This document shows positions 1-9,887 of a stretch of DNA of 9,887 bases, piece after piece. The stretch's first letter is position 1, and every line of letters starts with the position of its first letter. Source of the DNA: a bacterium (GTDB lineage: Bacteria > Actinomycetota > Acidimicrobiia > UBA5794 > ZC4RG35); the NCBI GenBank assembly GCA_028819835.1, contig JAPPKR010000155.1, positions 1 through 9,887 of the forward strand. The letters are read 5' to 3'. The position numbers were made by a program, and so were the translations under genes. The notes under the pieces were generated by a model. That model saw only the letters and a list, made by a program, of their open reading frames with translations. It made no database searches and was not told where the DNA came from.

Positions 1-430
1 GCACTCCCACCAGAACGTCCTCGGGCAGGCGATCGGCGTAGTCCCGCGCCACGAACCGGTACACCTCTTCTCCTCCGGGCAATGCCGCGACCAGGGCGGG
101 CAGGGCCACCCGGCGGGGGTCCTGGTGGTCGGCCAACCCGTATGGGACAATTGCGCGTGATCGGTCGGGGTCCGAGAGCATCGGGAAGGGTAGTTTCAGC
201 TTCTCCACCATTGCCGCATGCCGGGAGGGCGAGTCGACATCAATCGCCGCGGTACGGAACCCGGCAGCCAGGATCTCCTGATGCCGGTGCGCCAGGCTGG
301 CCAACTGGCCGTTGCAGTAGGGTCACCAGTCCCCGCGGAGGAACACCAGGAGCACCCCTGCGTCGAGGTGGCTGCCGAGTCTCCACGGTTCGCAGGCCTG
401 GTCTTCGAGGGTGAAGTCGGGTATCGCCAT
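1..430 (-). CDS. Peroxiredoxin-like (AhpC/TSA, thioredoxin-fold) selenoprotein candidate, 3' end outside window
   Basis: Reading from ATG at 430 to the window edge gives 143 codons with one in-frame stop, TGA at 325-323 (codon 36). On both sides the frame encodes one continuous thioredoxin-fold protein. It starts MAIPDFTLED, then has the strand LLVFLRGDW, the TGA, PYCNGQLASL, and later AAIDVDSP and PFPMLSDPDR, the usual peroxiredoxin-like order. In this family the motif is RGxWCPYC, so TGA stands exactly in place of the first, catalytic Cys of CxxC, giving Sec36-P-Y-Cys39. Known biology: UxxC selenoproteins of this fold reduce peroxides or disulfides in the cytoplasm. Hairpin-forming sequence directly follows the TGA. 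No Shine-Dalgarno site is seen; TATAGT ends 7 nt before the ATG. Conventional gene callers would split or truncate it. Alternatives are a nonsense mutation or a sequencing error, but position and intact flanking frame argue against both. The family call is firm; selenocysteine is inferred. Confidence 0.82.
297..317 (-). promoter_or_regulatory. Candidate bacterial SECIS hairpin just after the in-frame UGA
   Basis: Numbering the UGA as nt 1-3, nt 9-29 can fold as CUG/CAG plus CAAC/GUUG, with a two-base GC bulge on the 3' side and a five-base loop GGCCA. The loop therefore opens with GG, as in the E. coli fdhF element. A competing fold pairs GGCC (nt 16-19) with GGCC (nt 24-27) around loop AGUU. 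A third, GCCA/UGGC around loop GCC, lies a little further on. Bacterial SECIS elements are read by SelB and sit inside the coding region directly downstream of UGA. The loop starts about 13, 17 or 26 nt after the UGA in the three folds, and the best one cannot be decided by eye. GC-rich sequence forms short hairpins easily, so this supports the Sec call but does not prove it. Confidence 0.5.
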
Positions 431-437
431 CGGAGGC

Positions 438-443
438 ACTATA
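438..443 (-). promoter_or_regulatory. Probable -10 box (TATAGT) for the selenoprotein-like gene
   Basis: On the minus strand TATAGT (5 of 6 matches to TATAAT) ends 7 nt before the ATG at 430, inside the 36-nt gap between this gene and the upstream LiaF-like gene. Transcription would begin at or next to the start codon, giving a leaderless mRNA. This agrees with the lack of a Shine-Dalgarno site. No good -35 box is visible at 17 nt spacing. Confidence 0.5.
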
Positions 444-466
444 CCGCAGGCGTGAGTCGGGAACCC

Positions 467-1375
467 CTAGCCTGAGGCGGTGATTATCTGGGCCGAGCCT
501 TCCTCCATGACGGTGATGTCCCACCCTGCGCCCCGCTCCCCGAACCAAGCCGTATCCCCGTCGACCGTCCACTCCTCGGGCACGACGGCCGCTCCCAGCA
601 CCTCGACCGCAACCCCGGCGGGCACCTCGATGGTGAAAGAACCGCTCAGGACCATTCTGGTGGGTGTCGATGCCCCTGCTACCTTGATGGCGCCTTCCCC
701 GGCCACCGCCAGGCCCGCCAGGCGAATGTTGCGAAGATCCAGGGAGATCTCGGGGGCTGCCAACGTCAGGTTCCAGGTCGGATCGGGATGCAGGCCCACA
801 CTCCATCCGGAGGACCGTAACCAGGCGTTGTCCTGCACCGGCAGGTCGAGGTCGAAGGGAAGGGGGTCTCTGACATCAATGATGGTTATCTCTCCCCCCT
901 GGTCTCCGGTACTCTCAACCGCCAGAGGGATTCCGGCGCCCCCTCCCCGTCGGGTCATCTCCACCTGGTAAGCGGAGGGACCGCTCCCCGTCAAAACCGT
1001 CAAACGTCCTTCTCTCATCTGCACTGCAAGTGTCGAGAAACCCACTTGATCCACCGGCGGGCCCTTCAGGTCGGCGCTGCGGGACGGGAGAGACCCGACA
1101 TCTGTGAAGTGGAGGGAGACAGAGAACACCAGCCAGGTGAAAATCACCAGCGGGGTAACCGGGGCGTGAGCAAGTCGGGTGGTCGGCCAGATCCTCCGCG
1201 TCACCCATCCCAGGGCGAGGAGAGCGGCCCCGATCGGCCACAGGGCGCCAACGTCCAGCAGGATCGCCGGCGACAGGAGCCGGATCGCCACCCCAACCGC
1301 GAGGATGGCCAGGACCGCGCCGATGAGCCCCCAAGCTCCTCTCTTTTGTACCAGGAGGTGCTCCGTCTGGGTCAC
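467..1375 (-). CDS. LiaF-like membrane protein (three-helix N-terminus, beta-rich C-terminal domain)
   Basis: 302 aa if it begins at GTG 1375-1373, whose GTGA overlaps the stop of the upstream LytR_C gene. Three hydrophobic segments lie near residues 14-32, 38-57 and 73-90. The second contains ALWPIGAALLALGW, which resembles the LiaI/LiaF transmembrane region. After residue 100 the protein is a soluble, repetitive beta-strand region rich in short hydrophobic strands, with motifs such as GEGAIKVAG and GSFTIEVPAGVAVEV, suggesting a toast-rack/DUF2154-like or putative-adhesin beta domain outside the membrane. LiaF family proteins often modulate cell-envelope stress signalling, but no two-component system lies here, so function stays open. 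The open frame runs upstream to 1510, but that part overlaps the neighbour's coding sequence and is compositionally poor. Membrane topology is clear; the LiaF link is moderate. Confidence 0.62.
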   Translation of the reverse strand: MTQTEHLLVQKRGAWGLIGAVLAILAVGVAIRLLSPAILLDVGALWPIGAALLALGWVTRRIWPTTRLAHAPVTPLVIFTWLVFSVSLHFTDVGSLPSRSADLKGPPVDQVGFSTLAVQMREGRLTVLTGSGPSAYQVEMTRRGGGAGIPLAVESTGDQGGEITIIDVRDPLPFDLDLPVQDNAWLRSSGWSVGLHPDPTWNLTLAAPEISLDLRNIRLAGLAVAGEGAIKVAGASTPTRMVLSGSFTIEVPAGVAVEVLGAAVVPEEWTVDGDTAWFGERGAGWDITVMEEGSAQIITASG

Positions 1376-1986
1376 TCCTCGAAAGAGCGTCCCAAGACCA
1401 CCACGATGTCGATCCCTTCCTGCTCCAGCGGGATCGCCTCTACCAGCGCGTCGGGAACCAGTTCCTCCCTGAGGAGCGCAGCCTCCCTGGAGAGGTCGTC
1501 CCGGTACCACACCCGTGACACGTCCAGGCGTTGAGCATGATTGTCCGGTGAGGTTACGCCATACCCGGCCTCCTCCAAGCGGCCGGACAACCTGCCGGCC
1601 ACCCCCTGGACGCCGTTGGCGTTGAGAACCCGTACCACCAACTGGGCCGGGTCGAGAGGCGGAGGGACGGTGGTTGTGGTGGTGGAGGTGGTGGTGACCG
1701 CCGCAGTGGTGGAGGTGGTGGTGTCGGCTTCCGTGGCCTCGGTCGTAGCGGGACGGCTGGTGGTAGTGGCGCCCACCTCGGGCTCGGTCCCCGGGGTCAC
1801 AGCTTCCGTGGTGGCGGTGGTCTCGGGGACCGAGGTTGTCGGAACAGCTTCCGTGAACAGGTCATCCTCGGAGAAGAGCCACCATATGAAAATGACCATC
1901 GCAACCAGCAACAGGGCGAGGACGGTCCTCAGGATTATGTCGCGCCAGAAGGGTGACCATCCTCCCGCGGCGTGGCGGCCCCTCAT
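1372..1986 (-). CDS. Membrane-anchored LytR_C-domain protein with Thr-rich linker
   Basis: 204 aa. A short basic N-terminus precedes a single membrane segment (about residues 17-38, ILRTVLALLLVAMVIFIWWLF). Residues 45-110 form an extracellular linker made almost wholly of Thr, Ala, Pro, Glu and Ser, encoded by a low-complexity ACC/ACG tract (about 1669-1723). A C-terminal LytR_C-like domain (about 116-201) starts VVRVLNANGVQGVAGRL and ends IDIVVVLG. LytR_C domains occur at the end of LytR-CpsA-Psr ligases and, in actinobacteria, also alone on membrane anchors, where they are thought to act at the cell wall; no catalytic LCP domain is present here. It overlaps the LiaF-like gene by four bases (GTGA), so the two are probably co-translated. 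ATG 1986 is chosen as the first in-frame start. A 6-bp inverted repeat lies just upstream. Confidence 0.8.
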   Translation of the reverse strand: MRGRHAAGGWSPFWRDIILRTVLALLLVAMVIFIWWLFSEDDLFTEAVPTTSVPETTATTEAVTPGTEPEVGATTTSRPATTEATEADTTTSTTAAVTTTSTTTTTVPPPLDPAQLVVRVLNANGVQGVAGRLSGRLEEAGYGVTSPDNHAQRLDVSRVWYRDDLSREAALLREELVPDALVEAIPLEQEGIDIVVVLGRSFEE

Positions 1987-1990
1987 CGGC

Positions 1991-2008
1991 GACCTGCCGA
2001 CACAGGTC
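1991..2008 (-). repeat. Inverted repeat (GACCTG/CAGGTC) directly before the LytR_C gene start
   Basis: A perfect 6-bp inverted repeat with a 6-nt loop ends 4 nt before the ATG at 1986. In the minus-strand mRNA its 3' arm contains AGG, six nt before the ATG and the only Shine-Dalgarno-like bases there, so folding could hide the ribosome site. It could equally be an operator or chance. No T-run follows, so it is not an intrinsic terminator for the upstream tRNA. Confidence 0.3.
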
Positions 2009-2130
2009 CGACGATCAACAGTTCCGGCACCTCTCCGAGTTTGGTGTACGGGGCCACAAGATTCGACATCCCAACAGTAGGTTATCGCAGTTTGTGGCTA
2101 AGTTGGCACATTTAGGAAGGGACCTGTGGG

Positions 2131-2204
2131 AGCTGGCGGTGGGACTCGAACCCACGACCTGCTGATTACAAATCAGCTGCTCTGGCCGTCTGAGCTACGC
2201 CAGC
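2131..2204 (-). tRNA. tRNA-Thr (anticodon UGU)
   Basis: The minus strand folds into a complete 74-nt cloverleaf. It has acceptor GCTGGCG/CGCCAGC (7 bp), D stem GCTC/GAGC, anticodon stem GCTGA/TCAGC with loop TTTGTAA (anticodon TGT, reading ACA), a 5-nt variable region AGGTC, and T arm GTGGG-TTCGAGT-CCCAC. The discriminator base is U, and CCA is not encoded (TCCC follows). It sits 42 nt downstream of the rlmB stop on the same strand. It could be processed from read-through of the housekeeping operon or use its own promoter (TACGAT, 2219-2224). Confidence 0.96.
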
Positions 2205-2218
2205 TGGTTGAGATCGGG

Positions 2219-2224
2219 ATCGTA
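2219..2224 (-). promoter_or_regulatory. Possible -10 box (TACGAT) for tRNA-Thr
   Basis: TACGAT on the minus strand lies 14 nt before the tRNA 5' end, in the 42-nt gap after rlmB. It matches TANNNT and four of six bases of TATAAT. No clear -35 box is present, and read-through from rlmB would also supply the tRNA, so the call is weak. Confidence 0.3.
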
Positions 2225-2246
2225 CCATTTAGAGGCCAGACCCGGC

Positions 2247-2993
2247 TCATGGTTTCGGAAGGTAGCCGCGGACGCGGGCCAGTTCGAAGAGCGCCAACCC
2301 GGCCGCGACCGAGGCGTTCAGGCTCTCGGCATCTCCCACCATGGGGATGGAGGCCAGCAGGTCCACCCGTTGCGCCACCAGCCTCGACAGGCCCCGGTGC
2401 TCGGCCCCGACCACCAGGGCGGCGGGCTCTCCCAGCAACTCCAATCCGAGAAGAGACGTCGGAGCGTCGGCCGCCAGGCCGACTGTCCAGACACCCATGC
2501 GGGAGAGTTGGCTGAGCGTCTCCGCTATGGAGGAGACCATGCAGACGCGCGTCCGTTCCAAGGCCCCCGCGGCCGCCTTGAAGGCTGTGGGAGTGAGAGG
2601 CGATCCCCTCCGCCGGGGAATAACCAGCCGGGGGGTTCCCGCCGCCACCGCACTGCGGGCGATCGCCCCCAGGTTGCGGGGATCGGAGATGCGATCGACC
2701 ACCACCAGGGCGGCGGGCGCCGCCTCGTCGGCCAGTTGGGTGAGCGTCACTGCCCGAAGCGGACGGCATTCGGCCAGCACCCCCTGCGGGGAAGAGGTAA
2801 CAGCCATGCCCGCCAGGCTGCTCACCATCTCTATCTCCACTCCCCCGCCCCGGGCCGAGTCCACCAGTTCGGCCACGCGGGGGCCGGAGGCGGAGCGGCT
2901 TTCGACTCGAAGCTTCCGCACCCGGCCCGCTTCGAGGGCAGCCTCGACCGCCGGGACTCCCTCGACCCTAGCGCCGTAGCCAGCGAGTGCCAT
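2247..2993 (-). CDS. rlmB: 23S rRNA 2'-O-ribose methyltransferase, SpoU/TrmH family (RlmB-like)
   Basis: 248 aa, the usual length for RlmB. An N-terminal substrate-binding domain (about residues 1-80) begins MALAGYGARVEGVPAVEAAL and ends SSPQGVLAECRPL. The SPOUT catalytic domain follows with its three signature motifs: motif 1 in DRISDPRNLGAIARSA (conserved Asn and catalytic Arg), motif 2 VVGAEHRGLSR, and motif 3 IPMVGDAESLNASVAAG. These form the trefoil knot that binds S-adenosylmethionine. RlmB methylates the ribose of G2251 (E. coli numbering) in the 23S rRNA peptidyl-transferase region. ATG 2993 is supported by GGAGG nine nt upstream. It overlaps the end of cysS by 26 bp, a pairing common in actinobacteria. 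The exact target site is inferred; other SpoU members modify tRNA or rRNA elsewhere. Confidence 0.9.
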   Translation of the reverse strand: MALAGYGARVEGVPAVEAALEAGRVRKLRVESRSASGPRVAELVDSARGGGVEIEMVSSLAGMAVTSSPQGVLAECRPLRAVTLTQLADEAAPAALVVVDRISDPRNLGAIARSAVAAGTPRLVIPRRRGSPLTPTAFKAAAGALERTRVCMVSSIAETLSQLSRMGVWTVGLAADAPTSLLGLELLGEPAALVVGAEHRGLSRLVAQRVDLLASIPMVGDAESLNASVAAGLALFELARVRGYLPKP

Positions 2994-4392
2994 CTCGGGA
3001 ATCCTCCAACACGATCCCCAGGGCGGCCAAGTCGTCCCTGATTCGATCGGCCGACGCGTAATCGCCTTCCGAACGCGCCGCAGAGCGTTTTGCAAGCAGG
3101 CTCCCCACAATTTCGGCGGTGTCTCCCGCCGCGTCGGCGCCTTCCCGGGAGGCGATCTGTTCCACCGAAGCCCGGAGTTCGTCGAGTTCTCGAGTCTGGG
3201 AGTGGAGGGAGAAGCCGGAGAGGTCGTCCAGTCCCAGGACCCGGGCCATCTCCCAGGCAGCCGCGGCATGGGCTCCGGCGGAACCGGTGAGCTCCAACTC
3301 GCGGTTGGCCTCCCGTACCGCGCCGAACAGCCAGCCGAGCGCCCGGGGAGTGGCGAAGTCGTCGTCCATGGCTTCCTCGAAGCCGGCGATGGTCTCCGGG
3401 TGGGGCGGCTTCTTCACATCGGCGGTCTTCTCCAGGAGACGGTGAAGACGAGCCAGGGCGGTCTGAGCGTCCTCCAGGAGTTCGTTGGAAAACTCCTGCG
3501 GCGAGCGGTAATGCGCCTGTAGGTAGAACAGTCGGACCGCCAAGCCACCGAATCGCTGGTTCGCCTCGTTCAGGTCGACCAGATGACCGGTGGACTTTGA
3601 CATCTTCTCCCCGCTCAGGTTGAGCATGCCGTTGTGCATCCAGATCCGGGCGAACGGCGCTCCGTTTGCCCCTTCGGACTGGGCTATCTCGTTTTCGTGG
3701 TGCGGAAAGATCAAGTCGTTTCCCCCGCCGTGGATGTCAAAGGTCTCCCCCAGGTACCGCGCAGCCATGGCGGAGCACTCGATGTGCCATCCGGGGCGGC
3801 CCGGGCCCCAGGGCGAATCCCACCAAGGCTCACCGTGTTTGGCCTCCTTCCAGAGAGCGAAGTCCAGGGGATCGTCCTTCTGCTCGGAAACCTCCACCCG
3901 GGCTCCTGCCATGAGGTCATCGAGGCCCTGACCGGAGAGTTTCCCGTATCCGGAGAGGGACCGCACCACGAAGTAGACGTCTCCCCCGCGGGCGTAGGCG
4001 AGACCCTTCCGGATGAGCCGGTTGATCAAAGCGATCATGTCGGGGATGTGTTCGGTCGCCTTTGGCTCTATGTCGGGAGCCTCCACTCCCAGGTCCCGGT
4101 ATCCGCGGTCGAACTCCCCCGTGATCCGGACCGCATGTTCTCCCGGTGGGACCCCCTCCTGCCGGGCGATGGCGATTATCTTGTCGTCCACGTCGGTGAT
4201 GTTCCGCACGAACCGGACATCCCAGCCCTTCCATGACAGATAGCGACGCACCACGTCGAAGACCACGGCGGAACGCCCGTGCCCCACATGGGGGGGAGAT
4301 TGGACCGTAGGGCCGCAGACATACATCCCGATTCTCGGGGGGTCAACCGGCTCCAGTGGCGTTGTCACCCTGTCAAGGGTGTTGTAGATCAT
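2968..4392 (-). CDS. cysS: Cysteinyl-tRNA synthetase
   Basis: 474 aa, normal for the family. This class I synthetase charges tRNA-Cys in the cytoplasm. Seen directly: YVCGPTV near residue 24, the HIGH motif as HVGH (35-38), KMSKS (263-267), and the four zinc ligands Cys26, Cys206 (WHIECSAMA), His231 and Glu235 (PHHENE) in the same order and spacing as the E. coli enzyme. A helical C-terminal DALR-type domain for anticodon recognition follows from about residue 305. ATG 4392 fits the family N-terminus (MIYNTLDRV). The open frame upstream to 4725 overlaps ispF and is not coding. It lies 62 nt after ispF and overlaps rlmB by 26 bp. A TAAAAT box 13 nt before the ATG may give it its own promoter. 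An mshC paralogue is excluded by overall length and the complete anticodon domain. Confidence 0.95.
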   Translation of the reverse strand: MIYNTLDRVTTPLEPVDPPRIGMYVCGPTVQSPPHVGHGRSAVVFDVVRRYLSWKGWDVRFVRNITDVDDKIIAIARQEGVPPGEHAVRITGEFDRGYRDLGVEAPDIEPKATEHIPDMIALINRLIRKGLAYARGGDVYFVVRSLSGYGKLSGQGLDDLMAGARVEVSEQKDDPLDFALWKEAKHGEPWWDSPWGPGRPGWHIECSAMAARYLGETFDIHGGGNDLIFPHHENEIAQSEGANGAPFARIWMHNGMLNLSGEKMSKSTGHLVDLNEANQRFGGLAVRLFYLQAHYRSPQEFSNELLEDAQTALARLHRLLEKTADVKKPPHPETIAGFEEAMDDDFATPRALGWLFGAVREANRELELTGSAGAHAAAAWEMARVLGLDDLSGFSLHSQTRELDELRASVEQIASREGADAAGDTAEIVGSLLAKRSAARSEGDYASADRIRDDLAALGIVLEDSRDGTRWLRR

Positions 4393-4405
4393 CACACCAC
4401 CGCCG

Positions 4406-4411
4406 ATTTTA
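4406..4411 (-). promoter_or_regulatory. Possible -10 box (TAAAAT) for cysS
   Basis: TAAAAT (five of six consensus bases) lies 13 nt before the cysS ATG inside the 62-nt ispF-cysS gap, the largest gap in the housekeeping block. It would give a leader of about six nt, in keeping with the absence of a Shine-Dalgarno site. No -35 box is evident. Confidence 0.35.
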
Positions 4412-4454
4412 GAGGAAAGCTCCTTCGACGCGGACGTGGAGGTCGGCGCGGTCC

Positions 4455-4946
4455 TTACCTGACCACCGTCACCGCGGCCACCGCCGCAATTCCCCGGTCG
4501 CGACCCACCCATCCCAATCCATCGGTGGTGGTGGCCTTGACCGAGACCTGCCCGACACTCAAACCCAGGGCGCCCGCCAGTGCTGCCCGGACGTCCTGGC
4601 GATAGGGAGCGACCCGTACCGATTCGGAGACAGCGGTCACGTCGCAGAACGACGGCTGCCACTTCATGCTCGCCGCCATCTCCACCACCCGGCGAAGCAA
4701 GCCCATGCTGTCGGCGTTTTCCCACCGTGGATCCGATGACGGGAAGAACGTGCCCAGGTCTCCCAGAGCCGAAGCGCCCAACAGTGCGTCGGCCACGGCA
4801 TGGGCCACCACATCTCCATCCGAGGTGGCTATCACCCCCCTCTCACGGTCAACCTCCACTCCGGCCAGCAGAATGGGGGGCTCTCCACCCAACCGGTGGA
4901 CATCCAATCCCCATCCCACTCGCCAATCCTGGCGCGATCCGGTCAC
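4455..4946 (-). CDS. ispF: 2-C-methyl-D-erythritol 2,4-cyclodiphosphate synthase
   Basis: 163 aa, full length. IspF converts CDP-methylerythritol 2-phosphate to the cyclic diphosphate with loss of CMP in the MEP isoprenoid pathway and works as a homotrimer. The metal ligands are visible as Asp15 and His17 (GLDVHRL) and His49 (SDGDVVAHAVADALLG). The C-terminal signature is VKATTTDGLGWVGR (residues 136-149). The loop that normally reads D-x-T-x-x-x-x-x-P-K/R is DVTAVSESVRVAPY here, so the usual Pro is replaced by Val; this loop lines the cytidine site in E. coli IspF. The start is GTG 4946-4944, whose GTGA overlaps the carD stop. The neighbour expected in many actinobacteria, ispD, is absent on either side, so the preceding pathway step must be encoded elsewhere. 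Confidence 0.92.
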   Translation of the reverse strand: MTGSRQDWRVGWGLDVHRLGGEPPILLAGVEVDRERGVIATSDGDVVAHAVADALLGASALGDLGTFFPSSDPRWENADSMGLLRRVVEMAASMKWQPSFCDVTAVSESVRVAPYRQDVRAALAGALGLSVGQVSVKATTTDGLGWVGRDRGIAAVAAVTVVR

Positions 4947-5638
4947 TTCTTACGAGCGATGGGCTCGAAAGTAGGCAACGCACGGTTGATTTTGTTCTCG
5001 GCCGCCGTAGCGTCCAGGCCCAGAGAGAAGCGGACCTCGGTGATCAATGCGTCTCGCGCGCGATTGAGCATCTTCTTGAGAGCAGGAGAGATGCCCTTGG
5101 TCTGGTTGGAGTAGTTGAGGTCCCTGACAACCTCCGCCACTTGAAAGATGTCCCCCGAGTACATCTTCTCCTGAAGCACTTTGTACCACCGGCTCCAGTT
5201 GGCCCCCGACTCCTGTGGATCCTCCTTGAGCTTCTGCACGACCCGGGCGGCCTCCGTTTTGTTGATCAGGGGCCGGATCGTGTAGAGAGTCTTGTTGGTC
5301 GGGACACTGATCACCATCTCCTCGGTGGGGAAGTTCAAAATGAAGTATTCCTGTGTCTCGCCGAAGTCGCTCTTGGTCTGGATGTCGGAGATGTGCGCCA
5401 CGCCGTGCTGGATGTGGACCACGTAATCGCCCTTCTTGTACTTCGGCGCCTGCTCCGGTGTTGACGAAGCGCCGGCGCCACTCCGGGCATGTCTCGGCGG
5501 AGACTTGACCTTCCTCCTGCGAGCCGGTGCGGGAACGGGAGGAGCGGCAGCGATTCCCGCCGTTTCGCTCTTGGTCCTGGCTCCCCGCTTACCGCTCTCG
5601 GCAGGCTTTTTCGCAGATGTCGGAACTCCCCGGGTCAT
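4943..5638 (-). CDS. carD: CarD-family RNA polymerase-binding transcription regulator with long basic N-terminal tail
   Basis: 231 aa against about 160 for mycobacterial CarD. The core starts near residue 67 (YKKGDYVVHIQHGVAHI) and holds the Tudor-like RNA-polymerase-interaction domain, then the helical DNA-binding domain with NWSRWYK and GDIFQVAEVVRDL. Trp148 matches the Trp that wedges into the -10 element in M. tuberculosis CarD (W85). Two Arg residues that contact polymerase there (R25, R47) align with Lys89 and Ser111. Residues 1-66 are a Lys/Arg/Ala/Pro-rich, probably disordered tail. No ATG, GTG or TTG occurs in frame in codons 2-66, so the tail is not a mis-called start. CarD stabilises the open complex at rRNA and many other promoters. 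The ATGA overlap links it to disA, and a TATAAT box within the disA end may give a separate promoter. Confidence 0.93.
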   Translation of the reverse strand: MTRGVPTSAKKPAESGKRGARTKSETAGIAAAPPVPAPARRRKVKSPPRHARSGAGASSTPEQAPKYKKGDYVVHIQHGVAHISDIQTKSDFGETQEYFILNFPTEEMVISVPTNKTLYTIRPLINKTEAARVVQKLKEDPQESGANWSRWYKVLQEKMYSGDIFQVAEVVRDLNYSNQTKGISPALKKMLNRARDALITEVRFSLGLDATAAENKINRALPTFEPIARKK

Positions 5639-6759
5639 GGAAGACGATTATACGATTTCGGGCGGTCTGTGAGCACGCGTTGTCCTATAGGGTGAACCGC
5701 GGCCAGCAGCCGATCGAAGTAATGCCTCAACCGGGTGGCTGTCTTGGGGCCTACTCCCCTCACCTCCATCAAGCGTTCCAGAGGCGCATGCAGCAGAGCC
5801 GGGGCGTCGGGGAACTCCTCCAGGAGGATTCCCCTGATCCGCTTGGTGACGACGCCGGTCCTGTACAGAAGCCGGTGCCCCCGCGGGACAAGCTCTCCTT
5901 CCAGGTCGGACAGTCCGATCTCTGTCTCCACCAGCCAGGTGTGGGCGAGTTGGTGTCCCAGCACGCCGGCCAGCGCCCCTCGAGCTTCATCCCCTTCGTC
6001 ATCCAGGTAGTCCCTCAAGGTCAGTTGCAGCAGTCTCTCCACTTCGAATACTCGATCCGCCACCACAGCGGCGGTGGTATCCGGGTCCTGGGCGGAGTCG
6101 ACCACCATGGCCTCGATGCCGGATGCAGCCCTGACCACCAACTCACCCAGCCTCAGCATGTGCGCCACGTCCCTTCGGGTCACCAGTCCCAGCAACTCCA
6201 TCCGAAGCAGGTGTTCCTCGGCTTCATCGAACCGCTTACGCATCACCACGAGAATCTGAAGATGGTGAAGGATCCGCCGGCCGATTGTCCACCGGGGGGT
6301 GAGATCCGCCTGCTCGGAATTGAAATAGAGGGTTACCACCGCCCGGTCCTTGCTCACGGTGACAACCGGCAGGCCGGTCACATAGGCGGTCCGCTGGGCG
6401 GTGCGATGCCGGGAACCGGATTCGGTGGTGGGGAGATCCATCGGAGGGGAGAGATGGGCGTTGGCGGTGAGGATGCTTTTCCACGAGTTGTCGAGGATTA
6501 TCGCTCCGTCCATCTTCGCCACTTCCGACAGACGGGCGGCGTCAAAGCCGTCAGACGCTATTTGCAGTCCGTCCACGCTGATGTCTTGCAGGTCGAGGTT
6601 CGAGCCGAGCACGATCAGGGCTCCCTCCCTGGCCTGGAGTATTCTTTCCAACCCGTCCCGGATAGGACGATGCGAGAAAAGTCTCTCCACCACCTCTTGG
6701 GTTGTTCGGTCGCCCACCACAACTTTGAGGCTAGCAAAAAGGCTGCCGCGCTCCGCCAT
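5635..6759 (-). CDS. disA: DNA integrity scanning diadenylate cyclase DisA
   Basis: 374 aa, close to the family norm of about 360. DisA makes cyclic di-AMP from two ATP in the cytoplasm, scans DNA as an octamer and stops at branched structures. The N-terminal DAC domain shows both catalytic motifs: DGA at residues 84-86 (KMDGAIILD) and GSRHRTA at 115-121. A helical linker domain follows. A C-terminal RuvA-like helix-hairpin-helix at about 325-350 (PLERLMEVRGVGPKTATRL) binds branched DNA. An in-frame TGA two codons upstream fixes ATG 6759 as the earliest ATG. It is first in the disA-carD-ispF-cysS-rlmB run, and its TGA overlaps the carD ATG. Adjacency of disA and carD is familiar in actinobacteria, although radA often sits close by and is not seen here. 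Confidence 0.96.
   Translation of the reverse strand: MAERGSLFASLKVVVGDRTTQEVVERLFSHRPIRDGLERILQAREGALIVLGSNLDLQDISVDGLQIASDGFDAARLSEVAKMDGAIILDNSWKSILTANAHLSPPMDLPTTESGSRHRTAQRTAYVTGLPVVTVSKDRAVVTLYFNSEQADLTPRWTIGRRILHHLQILVVMRKRFDEAEEHLLRMELLGLVTRRDVAHMLRLGELVVRAASGIEAMVVDSAQDPDTTAAVVADRVFEVERLLQLTLRDYLDDEGDEARGALAGVLGHQLAHTWLVETEIGLSDLEGELVPRGHRLLYRTGVVTKRIRGILLEEFPDAPALLHAPLERLMEVRGVGPKTATRLRHYFDRLLAAVHPIGQRVLTDRPKSYNRLP
5647..5652 (-). promoter_or_regulatory. -10 box (TATAAT) for carD inside the end of disA
   Basis: A perfect TATAAT lies 8 nt before the carD ATG, overlapping disA codons for YN near the C-terminus. No Shine-Dalgarno site precedes carD, so a leaderless or near-leaderless transcript is plausible. 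The hexamer at 17-nt spacing (TGCTCA) matches TTGACA at only three positions. carD could therefore be transcribed both from here and by read-through from disA. Confidence 0.55.
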
Positions 6760-6766
6760 GTATCAT

Positions 6767-6780
6767 CACTGCTGACAGTG
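6767..6780. repeat. Short inverted repeat upstream of disA
   Basis: CACTG-ctga-CAGTG, a perfect 5-bp inverted repeat centred about 15 nt before the disA ATG. It overlaps the place where disA transcription would begin if TATGCA (6777-6782, minus strand) is the -10 box. It may be an operator or a 5'-leader hairpin, or chance. Confidence 0.25.
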
Positions 6781-6796
6781 CATACCGAAGAGACCG

Positions 6797-6812
6797 GCCG
6801 GGGTACCCTGGC
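6797..6812. repeat. Near-perfect palindrome in the disA / zinc-ribbon gene divergent region
   Basis: The 16-bp sequence gccgGGGTACCCtggc is a perfect palindrome apart from one pair of opposed positions. It lies near the centre of the 107-bp region between the divergent starts of disA and the plus-strand membrane gene. A dimeric regulator controlling both genes could bind here. No known regulator consensus was recognised. Confidence 0.3.
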
Positions 6813-6866
6813 TCCACAAATGAAATCAACCGTCCCCCTCGGGGATTGTGCCAAAATAGGCTGGCT

Positions 6867-7790
6867 ATGAGACAGATCTGTGGTCGATGCGGCGCTGATG
6901 TCGGAGACGCGGACTTTTGCTCCTCGTGCGGCGCTCTCCTTGAAAGGCCGATCCCCTCAACAACGATTGAAGACCCCGCCCCGGACGACTCCTCGGTCAC
7001 TTACCCACCCACCCACAACATGGTGTCCTGCTCCTTGTGCGGCCACCTCAACCCTCCTTCCCGACAGAGTTGCGAGCAGTGCCACATAAGACTCAACCAA
7101 GCGGACATGCCCCTTGCTCCCCGTCCCACCATCGGGACGAATGCCCGGGTGAGAGCGGTCATCGCCACGGGGACGACGATTTTCGCGGTAGCGGTGTTCG
7201 CCCTGCTCTTCAACCTCTTCACCGGCGGTTCCGAAGAGGACGGAGAGGCTACCGAAGATACCGTGGCGGTTGAGGAGACCACCACCACCACTGCTCCCCC
7301 ACCGATCCCCACCACCCAGGGGGTGTTGAGCGTGGTGTGCTCCCCGGAGGGACTGGGGGCCATCTACTCCTGTGACAACCTGATAAACGGAAAGACCGGC
7401 GAGTGGCAGATAAGGTGGACAGACATCACCCCGGGCACGCAGGTCACCATCAGCCTGGTCTTCGAGCAGCCCATCACCATCCGCCGCCTGGAGTGGGTCA
7501 ACGTCAGTGACGAGGACCGCTTCTACCAGAACTTCAGGGTGAGGACCATGGAGGCGGGAAGCGACAGCGGCGTGGCCATTCCCCTGAACCTGGTGGACCG
7601 CCTCGGATCCCAGATCATCGACTTGGCGGTCATGCGGACCAACCAACTCACCCTGACCATAACCACGGTGTATGACGCGGAAGTCCGCAACGGCACGGTC
7701 TACAAGGAGTTGGCGGTGGAAGGCATCAACGTGATCGGCTATCCGGCGGCGCCCCTCAGTTCGGAAACGACCACCACGGCCGTCTCCTAG
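6867..7790 (+). CDS. Double zinc-ribbon membrane protein with discoidin-like extracellular domain
   Basis: 307 aa from ATG 6867; a TTG at 6846 would add seven residues. Two zinc ribbons occupy the N-terminus: CGRCG with CSSCG (Cys5, 8, 18, 21) and CSLCG with CEQC (Cys55, 58, 69, 72). One membrane helix lies at about residues 97-118 (VIATGTTIFAVAVFALLFNLF), then an acidic and Thr/Pro-rich linker. The outer domain (about 150-295) has the pattern of discoidin/NADase-type glycan-binding beta sandwiches: SCDNLINGKTGEWQIRW, then VTISLVFEQPITIRRLEWVN, and a late strand KELAVEGINVIGY. With cytoplasmic zinc ribbons and an external binding domain, it could be a surface sensor or scaffold. No catalytic motif is seen and the function is unknown. 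It is transcribed away from disA, and its TAG shares CTAG with the convergent P450 stop. Confidence 0.75.
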   Translation: MRQICGRCGADVGDADFCSSCGALLERPIPSTTIEDPAPDDSSVTYPPTHNMVSCSLCGHLNPPSRQSCEQCHIRLNQADMPLAPRPTIGTNARVRAVIATGTTIFAVAVFALLFNLFTGGSEEDGEATEDTVAVEETTTTTAPPPIPTTQGVLSVVCSPEGLGAIYSCDNLINGKTGEWQIRWTDITPGTQVTISLVFEQPITIRRLEWVNVSDEDRFYQNFRVRTMEAGSDSGVAIPLNLVDRLGSQIIDLAVMRTNQLTLTITTVYDAEVRNGTVYKELAVEGINVIGYPAAPLSSETTTTAVS

Positions 7791-9019
7791 ACGAACTCCA
7801 GGCCGAGAGGCAGCGTCGGCACCCCCCTGAACACCAGGCTGGGGACGCGCTGTCCGGCGCCATCCTCCACCTCGAACGAGCGCACCCGCTCCAGCAGGAC
7901 GTCGAAGGCGACTCTCAACTCTTCCCGGGCGAGGGCCACCCCCACGCAGTAGTGCACGCCGCCGCCGAACGAGACATGGGGGTTGGGGGTCCGCCCCAAG
8001 TCGAGGCGGTCGGGATGGGAGAACACATCCTCGTCGTGATTGGCCGAGCCGAGCAGCAGTCCCACCTTCGATCCTCCCTCCAACGGCAACCCGCCCCATT
8101 CGAGGTCCTCGGTCACCCACCGCTCGAACATCTGGAGCGGTGTGTCGTATCGGAGCAACTCCTCCACCGCCGTCCCGCTCATCCCGGGATCGGATCGCCA
8201 TCGCCGCCATTGGTCGGGATGGGCCGCCAGCGCCATGAGCCCGTTGCCGATCGCCTGAACGGTCGCCTCGTGTCCGGCGTTCAGGACCAGGATTGCGGTG
8301 GAGATCAATTCCTCCTCACTGAGGACGTCCCCCTCGTGCTCGGAGCGGATCAGATGTGAGAGAAGGTTGTCCGCATCCCGACCCCGATGCTCGGCGATCA
8401 ACTCCTTCATGTAAGTGCAGAAGCTGATGACGGCCTGCTCGGCCTCCTCCCCCTCGGCAGGTGTGCAGCCCTGGTCGAAGAGTCTCACGATCAAATGCGA
8501 CCACTCCACCAGGCGGGGTTGATCAACCGGAGGCACTCCCATCAGTTCTCCGATCATCACCAGCGGTATGGGGGTGGCATACTCCGAGATGGCTTCCATC
8601 CGTCCCTCCCCGGCTACCGCGTCCAGCCGCCGGTGCGCCTCGACTTCCATCCTCTTGCGATAACTCTGTGAGGCCCGACGACTGAAGGCCCACTGGACAA
8701 GCCGGCGGATACGGGTGTGTTTTGGCGGCTCGAGATCGATAAAGGAGTCCCTGATCATCCGGGTCCACACCGGGTATCGGGGTGGATAGATCCGCTGGTA
8801 AACCTGGGGATCGACCCGGGCGGCGGCTGCCGGCGCGTGGCGGATGTCCCGTCCGAAGCGGCGATCCCGGAGAATCTGGTAGACGTCGGCGTGTCGGCTG
8901 AAGAATGTGAGGTTCCAGTGTTGGTCGTAGAAGACCGGATGTCGTTGCCTCAGCCGGGCATAGACGGGATAGGGATTGGAGATGAAGTCGGGATGGTAGG
9001 GATCGAATCCCGCTGTCAA
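7787..9019 (-). CDS. Cytochrome P450 (soluble bacterial type)
   Basis: 410 aa from TTG 9019-9017, the usual length and start of bacterial P450s (MTAGFDPYHPDFISNPYPVY). The haem-binding motif is FGGGVHYCVG with the axial Cys358. ExxR is E287-L-L-R290, and the C-helix HxxxR is H101-T-R-I-R105. The I-helix reads NAGHEATVQ (residues 247-255), so the Thr of the usual acid-alcohol pair (GxE/D-T) is Ala252, followed by Thr253; P450eryF also has Ala there. Such enzymes hydroxylate small molecules using electrons from ferredoxin and its reductase, none of which is encoded here. The substrate cannot be read from sequence. TTGA overlaps the permease stop, implying co-translation with the transporter. 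The longer open frame to 9232 overlaps the permease and lacks P450 similarity. Confidence 0.93.
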   Translation of the reverse strand: MTAGFDPYHPDFISNPYPVYARLRQRHPVFYDQHWNLTFFSRHADVYQILRDRRFGRDIRHAPAAAARVDPQVYQRIYPPRYPVWTRMIRDSFIDLEPPKHTRIRRLVQWAFSRRASQSYRKRMEVEAHRRLDAVAGEGRMEAISEYATPIPLVMIGELMGVPPVDQPRLVEWSHLIVRLFDQGCTPAEGEEAEQAVISFCTYMKELIAEHRGRDADNLLSHLIRSEHEGDVLSEEELISTAILVLNAGHEATVQAIGNGLMALAAHPDQWRRWRSDPGMSGTAVEELLRYDTPLQMFERWVTEDLEWGGLPLEGGSKVGLLLGSANHDEDVFSHPDRLDLGRTPNPHVSFGGGVHYCVGVALAREELRVAFDVLLERVRSFEVEDGAGQRVPSLVFRGVPTLPLGLEFV

Positions 9020-9887
9020 AGTTGCTGGCCCCGCCGGTAGGGGCGTCCGTCGGCGGCCGGCATCCGCAGGTGCTGGGAGGCCAGGGACATCACTACCAGG
9101 GTGGTGACATACGGAGCGATGAACACGAATTCCCGGGGAATGGAGTCGGTGGCCAGGAACACAGCCAGTGCCGCTACCCCGGTTCCCACCAGCCACACGG
9201 CGGGCGCCCAGCGGCGTCGGTATCCCATCCAAACACCGAAGGCGACCCCGGCCAGGGCGATCATCAGCAGCAGGGCATGGACGGCCGGCTCGTCCCGTAA
9301 CTCAAGGGCGAAGGTGAATCCGAACAGACCGCCGGCCGCGGCGGCGCCTCCGGGGCGCCAGTTGCCCATGATCATCGAGGCCAGCCCGATGAACCCTCTT
9401 CCGCCGGTCTGGCCCTCCCGGTAGATCCGGGCGAACTCGGTCACCAGGATGGCGCCGCCCAGTCCGGCCATGCCGCCTGACAGCATCACGCCCAGATACT
9501 TCATCCGGTAGACGTTCACTCCCAGGGACTCGGCCGCCACCGGGTGCTCGCCCACCGATCGCATCCGCAGCCCTAGCGGGGTCCTCCACAGGAACCACCA
9601 GGTTGCTGGAACCAGAGCCACCGCCACTATCACTGCCCAGGAGACATCAACGGTCATCCCTTTTGCCAGCCCGGCTAGATCGGAGATGAAGAACCACCGC
9701 TGGGACTCCAGCGTCCCCAACAGGTCGGGACTCTCCCATCCGAGGATCTCCCCTCCCGACAGCACCGGCAGTGAGGCCTTGCCGATCACGTCCGAGATGG
9801 GCGGCGATTGGGTTGCTCCTCCGCCGGTCTCAGCGCCGTAGGTGACCACCGACAGGAATCTCATCCCCCCGAACGCCAGGATGTTGA
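9016..9887 (-). CDS. ABC transporter permease, nucleoside/simple-sugar type (BPD_transp_2), 5' end outside window
   Basis: About 289 residues are visible, open to the window edge, so the true start is missing; the ATG at 9864 is probably internal because the frame continues hydrophobically upstream (NILAFGG). The hallmark is RTPLGLRMRSVGEHPVAAES-LGVNV, the cytoplasmic coupling loop of the branched-chain amino acid/sugar permease family and especially of the BmpA/NupN-linked nucleoside permeases. Several membrane helices follow (MKYLGVMLSGGMAGLGGAIL, then ALLLMIALAGVAFGVWMGY and VFIAPYVTTLVVMSLA). QTGGRGFIGLASMIMGNW is also typical. The partner permease, ATPase and lipoprotein should lie upstream, beyond the right edge. 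Its stop overlaps the P450 start (TTGA), suggesting that uptake of a purine nucleoside or related small molecule is tied to the P450. Substrate is inferred from family only. Confidence 0.88.
   Translation of the reverse strand, partial: NILAFGGMRFLSVVTYGAETGGGATQSPPISDVIGKASLPVLSGGEILGWESPDLLGTLESQRWFFISDLAGLAKGMTVDVSWAVIVAVALVPATWWFLWRTPLGLRMRSVGEHPVAAESLGVNVYRMKYLGVMLSGGMAGLGGAILVTEFARIYREGQTGGRGFIGLASMIMGNWRPGGAAAAGGLFGFTFALELRDEPAVHALLLMIALAGVAFGVWMGYRRRWAPAVWLVGTGVAALAVFLATDSIPREFVFIAPYVTTLVVMSLASQHLRMPAADGRPYRRGQQL

Follow-up and report, generated by a model that had tools for sequence, protein, structure and literature searches.

A very probable selenoprotein gene of the Prx-like UxxC type, with a candidate SECIS hairpin, in Acidimicrobiia

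The locus

The window considered here is a stretch of 9,887 nucleotides from a bacterium of the class Acidimicrobiia (assembly GCA_028819835.1, contig JAPPKR010000155.1, positions 1 to 9,887). The minus strand at its left end carries the 5' part of a gene that, judged from its sequence and from those of its relatives, almost certainly encodes a peroxiredoxin-like selenoprotein. An initial annotation had proposed a likely new selenoprotein at this place, and translation of positions 2-430 reproduces the frame that it described: from the ATG at 430, 143 codons extend to the window edge with a single stop, the TGA at 325-323, within the motif RGDW-U-PYCN, where U stands for selenocysteine (Sec). 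The features of the gene are as follows.

2..430, minus strand: 5' part of the candidate Prx-like selenoprotein gene, 143 of 223 codons as judged from genome G001; the remainder lies past the window edge
323..325, minus strand: codon 36, a TGA within the frame, taken to encode selenocysteine from the translation and the codons of homologues; first position of UxxC
314..316, minus strand: codon of Cys39, the UxxC partner of Sec36; invariant in 56/56 aligned proteins and aligned with the peroxidatic Cys of AhpE and PrxQ
98..100, minus strand: codon of Pro111, at the thioredoxin-like cis-Pro position (presumed cis geometry); Pro in at least 90% of the 56 proteins, aligned with R116 of AhpE

The Pfam AhpC-TSA match runs through the TGA (residues 3-93, E 3.2e-21, 76 bits against a cut-off of 26). 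The nearest genome, G001, which has 75% of the sampled 31-mers of the window in common with it, contains the complete gene: 223 codons with one internal TGA and a TAG terminator, 99% identical over the part present in the window. The sequences before and after the TGA match one continuous protein, as had been claimed.

Conservation of the in-frame TGA

The gene was found in five of six genomes of the same genus, with the TGA retained in all five at 79-99% identity; G005, the sixth, yielded nothing nearer than a distant match. The search across 395 class genomes (E up to 1e-15) yielded 46 rows, which come from 44 genomes. TGA stands at codon 36 in 43 of these rows (42 genomes) and TGC in one (G352), while two fragments, G317 and one of the two pieces from G353, stop short of it; thus the 43 genomes with a readable codon comprise 42 with TGA and one with Cys. 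Five of the 43 TGA rows come from a distant clade with PYCC.

At the level of the phylum (396 genomes, E up to 1e-12), 44 rows were found in 41 genomes, 32 of them with an internal TGA and 12 free of stops. Codon 36 of 27 further loci of the phylum is TGA in 19, Cys in seven and GAC in one. A separate set of 67 homologous loci has TGA in four (L023-L026) and TGC or TGT in the other 63. The assertion that the TGA stands in the place of the first Cys of the motif is borne out by these homologues, which, apart from the GAC row, carry Cys there when they lack TGA.

On a quick tree of 88 rows, built with the site masked, 62 Sec rows, 12 Cys rows and the GAC row form one clade (SH-aLRT, the approximate likelihood ratio branch support, 99). 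The Sec state needs at least three changes on this tree, against a mean of 22.7 in shuffles. In the phylum sample TGA and Cys forms occur within one family, f71, where G466, G651 and G732 each have one copy with TGA and one without; the Rubrobacteraceae / Rubrobacter loci L027-L030 are represented in the tree by rows identical to those of f71. A family that naturally contains both Sec and Cys members offers a test of what selenium contributes.

Two groups of unusual loci were observed. L187 (G525) encodes RGDW-D-PYC, neither Sec nor Cys, by a true change or an assembly error. L149-L153 and L186 form a separate clade with RGDW-U-PYCC, in which the TGA is kept, the N-terminus is divergent and the hairpins are placed differently.

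Both sides of the TGA are under purifying selection. For the five genus members, nonsynonymous divergence (dN) is below synonymous divergence (dS) in 10/10 pairs on either side: dN is 0.012-0.145 and dS 0.087-1.712 in the 35 codons before the TGA, and 0.035-0.190 and 0.251-1.482, respectively, in the 107 codons after it. No other premature stops were found in the genus members. Damaged or shortened copies outside the genus are exceptions and not a pattern: the distant Cys homologue L034 (33% identity) has a TAG one codon ahead of RGDW, L162 and L153 end early, L183 has an apparent frameshift in the alignment, and G669 contains two TGA and one TAG. Unrelated premature stops in relatives, named in the initial annotation as a sign against its proposal, are therefore absent from the genus and rare elsewhere.

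Selenocysteine machinery

The components of Sec decoding are present in the close relatives. All six genomes of the genus have selA, selB and selD over the curated cut-offs, with selA adjoining selB in each, and a tRNA-Sec scoring 76.7-79.6 bits. More widely, tRNA-Sec over the Rfam cut-off of 47 bits was observed in 51/60 relatives, some of them near the cut-off, and also in 5/14 controls. Among the 44 class genomes with a homologue, 39 gave a selA match (38 over the cut-off). With completeness of 90% or more and contamination of 5% or less required, 24 of the 44 are left, and of these only G352, the genome with Cys, gave none. In the phylum set 32 of 36 further genomes gave a selA match; of the four that did not, three have a TGA row. 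In f71 the presence of selA does not distinguish Sec from Cys, since it extends to genomes, such as G445, in which no row has a TGA.

The selD genes of G001-G006 (L112-L117) have one in-frame TGA in all six cases, and SelD of this genus is probably itself a selenoprotein, as far as can be read from these genes.

Candidate SECIS hairpin

The region downstream of the TGA is predicted to fold into a small, conserved hairpin, a candidate selenocysteine insertion sequence (SECIS), in one of two registers.

299..310, minus strand: predicted SECIS hairpin in register B, the more stable of the two in the window; stem GGCC at 310-307 paired with 302-299, loop AGUU at 306-303, 16 nt after the UGA
291..309, minus strand: alternative predicted SECIS hairpin, register A, the family consensus; arms 309-303 and 298-291, loop 302-299, bulge at 295, 20 nt after the UGA

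RNAalifold, applied unaided to an alignment of 30 Sec genes that also served for the pair counts (A1), produced a hairpin of seven pairs with a four-nucleotide loop and one bulge. Pairing holds in 97.6% of the 210 cells, against 94.5 in shuffles, and none of 500 shuffles was as high; the same is true of the four cells with double-sided changes at columns 18/34 (0/500). All seven consensus pairs are formed in 27/30 Sec genes and in 0/63 Cys homologues, the structure having been derived from the Sec genes. The E. coli fdhF gene contains at the matching place the sequence GGTTGCA-GGTC-TGCACC, which we take to be its SECIS.

Codons +4 to +10 past the TGA are near-fixed, with a mean same-codon excess of 0.72 compared with 0.04 elsewhere (standard deviation 0.21, 163 columns). 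Gln42 is encoded by CAG in all 30 Sec genes, and Ser45 by AGC in all 28 genes with Ser at this position, whereas elsewhere in the same genes AGC accounts for 54 of 288 Ser codons. The bacterial SECIS model as printed in PMC13188914 has a G among the first two loop positions and a loop 16-37 nt from the UGA; the loops predicted here agree with it, since in register A they start 20 nt and in register B 16 nt past the UGA, and G is their first or second base.

Single-gene energy tests against synonymous-codon resampling are weak. The mean z over 56 Sec genes is -1.11, with 55/56 below zero and only 10/56 at or below 5%, and the mean z of nine Cys or other genes is -0.07. The Cys homologues L172 and L184 fold well in register A (-9.1 each), and thus a hairpin at this place is not exclusive to Sec genes. 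The plain hairpin GGCC-AGYU-GGYC was rejected as a structure common to the whole family, as it breaks in 4/30 genes and shows no covariation, yet it is the favoured fold in 12/56.

The two registers were compared by constrained folding of the 56 Sec genes, with six PYCC rows left out. Register A is favoured in 44 of them (loops GGTC in 40, AGTT in three, CGCC in one) and register B in 12 (AGTT); the favoured loop contains GU in 55/56. In the window the margin is small, -8.1 kcal/mol for register B and -6.8 for register A. The choice of register follows residue 44. Val44 (GTN) occurs in 43/56 genes, with CTG or CTA at Leu43, and its codon places GU in loop A without further change. Loop A cannot hold GU when residue 44 is Ala; 12 of the 13 genes with Ala44 have TTG at Leu43 and register B, and L169, with CTC, lacks GU. 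Elsewhere in the genes TTG accounts for few of the Leu codons (59/603); it occurs in two (L174, L185) of the seven Cys or other loci with Ala44. The 12 Ala44/TTG genes form two separate clades, with two changes on the tree, so that the support for this link amounts to about two independent events. We regard it as evenly balanced whether the SECIS of this family has switched register twice, with the synonymous codon of Leu43 and residue 44 co-evolving so as to preserve GU in the apical loop; if so, a change of SECIS register becomes directly testable.

Active site and candidate function

The nearest structures in PDB are AhpE and Bcp, and the matches cover mostly residues 1-149; these residues are followed by a presumably helical C-terminal tail of two helices and about 75 residues. 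Sec36 aligns with the active-site Thr of peroxiredoxins, so that TxxC becomes UxxC, and Cys39 occupies the position of the peroxidatic Cys. The catalytic Arg is replaced by the near-invariant Pro111. Thus both marks of a classical peroxiredoxin, Thr at position -3 from the peroxidatic Cys and the catalytic Arg, are absent. The placing of the TGA at the catalytic Cys of a peroxiredoxin-like protein stood in part: the codon does belong to a redox active site, UxxC, but Sec36 takes the place of Thr and the counterpart of the peroxidatic Cys is Cys39.

Because Sec36 is at the Thr position, Cys39 at the peroxidatic position and the Arg is exchanged for a near-invariant Pro, we favour, with moderate confidence, a selenoprotein with a thioredoxin-like UxxC oxidoreductase role on a peroxiredoxin fold. 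SelB and tRNA-Sec would decode UGA codon 36 as selenocysteine, aided by the small hairpin, whose loop starts 16-20 nt downstream. In the resulting protein of 223 residues Sec36 and Cys39 would form a UxxC pair beside Pro111, a thioredoxin-like active site on the peroxiredoxin fold. Most likely Sec36 would attack disulfides, Cys39 would resolve the intermediate as a selenenylsulfide, after which a thiol system of the cell would re-reduce it. Inferred in this account are the insertion of Sec, the residue that attacks, what the protein acts on and what its C-terminal tail of two helices does.

Evaluation of alternatives

Several observations count against these interpretations. The Sec genes of the window's own genome are assumed from its same-genus relatives. 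In the class, no selA match was found in G033, G289, G321 and G376 (56-84% complete), and in the phylum a TGA is present and a selA match absent in G641 (93% complete, 590 contigs), G651 (82%) and G732 (88%). All four double changes in the hairpin (L137, L139, L141, L145) are in one clade; the number of pairs with a double change was matched by 290/500 shuffles and that of further pair types by 40/500. The folding energy of the window hairpin is unremarkable in synonymous-codon resampling (z -0.40, 35% as low). Finally, the oxidoreductase assignment was made by residues.

In favour of a pseudogene, a nonsense mutation or a sequencing error, the TGA is formally a stop, and the gene callers behind the databases start downstream of it. 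However, 42 other class genomes retain it, near-fixed codons follow it, dN is below dS on both sides, and the Sec machinery is present; this origin is highly improbable, in agreement with the earlier argument that a random nonsense mutation was unlikely. A reading of TGA as Trp or another standard amino acid, by a code change or suppression, appears more improbable still. Trp is found at this position in one database protein, P0032, presumably because its gene caller applied a genetic code in which TGA means Trp, but homologues without TGA have Cys and never Trp (the exceptions being GAC in L187 and Thr in L002, a distant BCP-type paralogue). Moreover, the gene itself terminates with TGA in 26 of the 62 Sec loci, and thus TGA also serves as a stop. 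The conserved TGA, the Sec machinery of close relatives, the hairpin with its near-fixed codons and the selection on both sides together argue for a selenoprotein.

Another possibility is that the selenoprotein is a peroxidase, in which Cys39 would attack peroxide with Sec36 resolving, or Sec36 itself would be peroxidatic. In its favour are the peroxiredoxin fold, for which AhpE and Bcp are the closest structures, the AhpC-TSA domain and the position of Cys39. On the other hand, the active-site Thr is replaced by Sec or Cys and the catalytic Arg by Pro, and the matching NCBIfam peroxiredoxin models remain far under their cut-offs (e.g. 28.6 against 140). We consider a peroxidase unlikely, though clearly less so than the preceding alternatives. 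A pseudogene or error, a code change and, by its residues, a classical peroxiredoxin were rejected on the conservation of the TGA, the Cys homologues and the missing Thr and Arg, respectively.

Relation to known families

Selenoproteins of a similar kind are already in print. Table 1 of PMC13188914 includes Prx-like thiol:disulfide oxidoreductases (PF00578, UxxC/UxxU), and Prx-like 1 and Prx-like selenoproteins are described in PMC2398784 and PMC1088965; the members named in these three sources are from Geobacter, other bacteria and marine metagenomes. As described there, they resemble the window protein in the AhpC-TSA domain, in UxxC for TxxC with Sec at the same place, and in the proposed redox role. 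Compared by description, the window protein differs in its C-terminal tail. No report of the present subfamily was found in the open literature, to which the literature search was confined. Hence the likely new selenoprotein of the initial annotation holds as a well-supported Sec gene with no subfamily report found, but the UxxC Prx-like type as such had been published; sequence comparison presents the gene family as a well-supported new selenoprotein branch of that known type.

No NCBIfam model reaches its cut-off with the window protein. The best match by E-value (1.1e-10) is NF040769, SelL-related redox protein, which has the same domain but matches over residues 2-91 only, at 41.4 bits where the cut-off is 120. 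AhpE, Bcp and PrxQ are similar in the fold over residues 1-149 and in the position of Cys39; the window protein differs from them by Sec or Cys for Thr, Pro for Arg, and the additional tail. The ResA/TlpA thiol-disulfide oxidoreductases have a CxxC-type site and a related fold (the ResA variant 3c71 was matched with E 4.1e-13), whereas the window protein has Sec for the first Cys, and inspection by eye shows neither a signal nor an anchor.

The subfamily, Cys forms included, occurs in 44/395 sampled genomes of the class and 41/396 of the phylum, and public databases nearly always truncate its proteins just past the active site. Among the 120 database relatives listed (159 were found), 119 start after codon 36, as extrapolated from the alignments, P0032 being the sole exception; one of the shortened proteins, P0017, is named 'peroxiredoxin family protein [Acidimicrobiia bacterium]'. 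Standard annotation thus misses the N-terminus, as had been anticipated.

Upstream region and neighbouring genes

A candidate promoter element lies directly upstream of the gene.

438..443, minus strand: TATAGT, 7 nt upstream of the ATG, a possible -10 box; its position would suit a leaderless mRNA

Of 30 rows whose start was assigned, 22 have the pattern TANNNT 6-9 nt upstream of it, in a plain count that includes the near-identical rows of L118 and the window; a 31st row has no assigned start. Leaderless transcription of the selenoprotein gene in the window and its relatives is possible, given this spacing. The order of neighbouring genes is kept across L023-L025, and these neighbours gave no clue to function. 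The adjoining gene, at 467-1372 of the window, encodes a protein of 301 amino acids that is conserved in the genus and has no Pfam match at E 0.001.

Additional genes with in-frame TGA

Other genes with in-frame TGA codons were observed in G001. Contig C31 contains, at 69515-71890, three adjacent Trx/ResA-like genes (L202, L200, L203), each with one in-frame TGA in the motif FWAEWUPxC, a likely selenoprotein cluster by its motifs. Another AhpC-TSA gene (L196), at 4812-5147 of contig C11, has one TGA in ASWUGC and resembles the UGC-containing Prx-like family as described in PMC2398784. That this genome has additional members of the same superfamily with an in-frame TGA points to a selenium-rich redox set.
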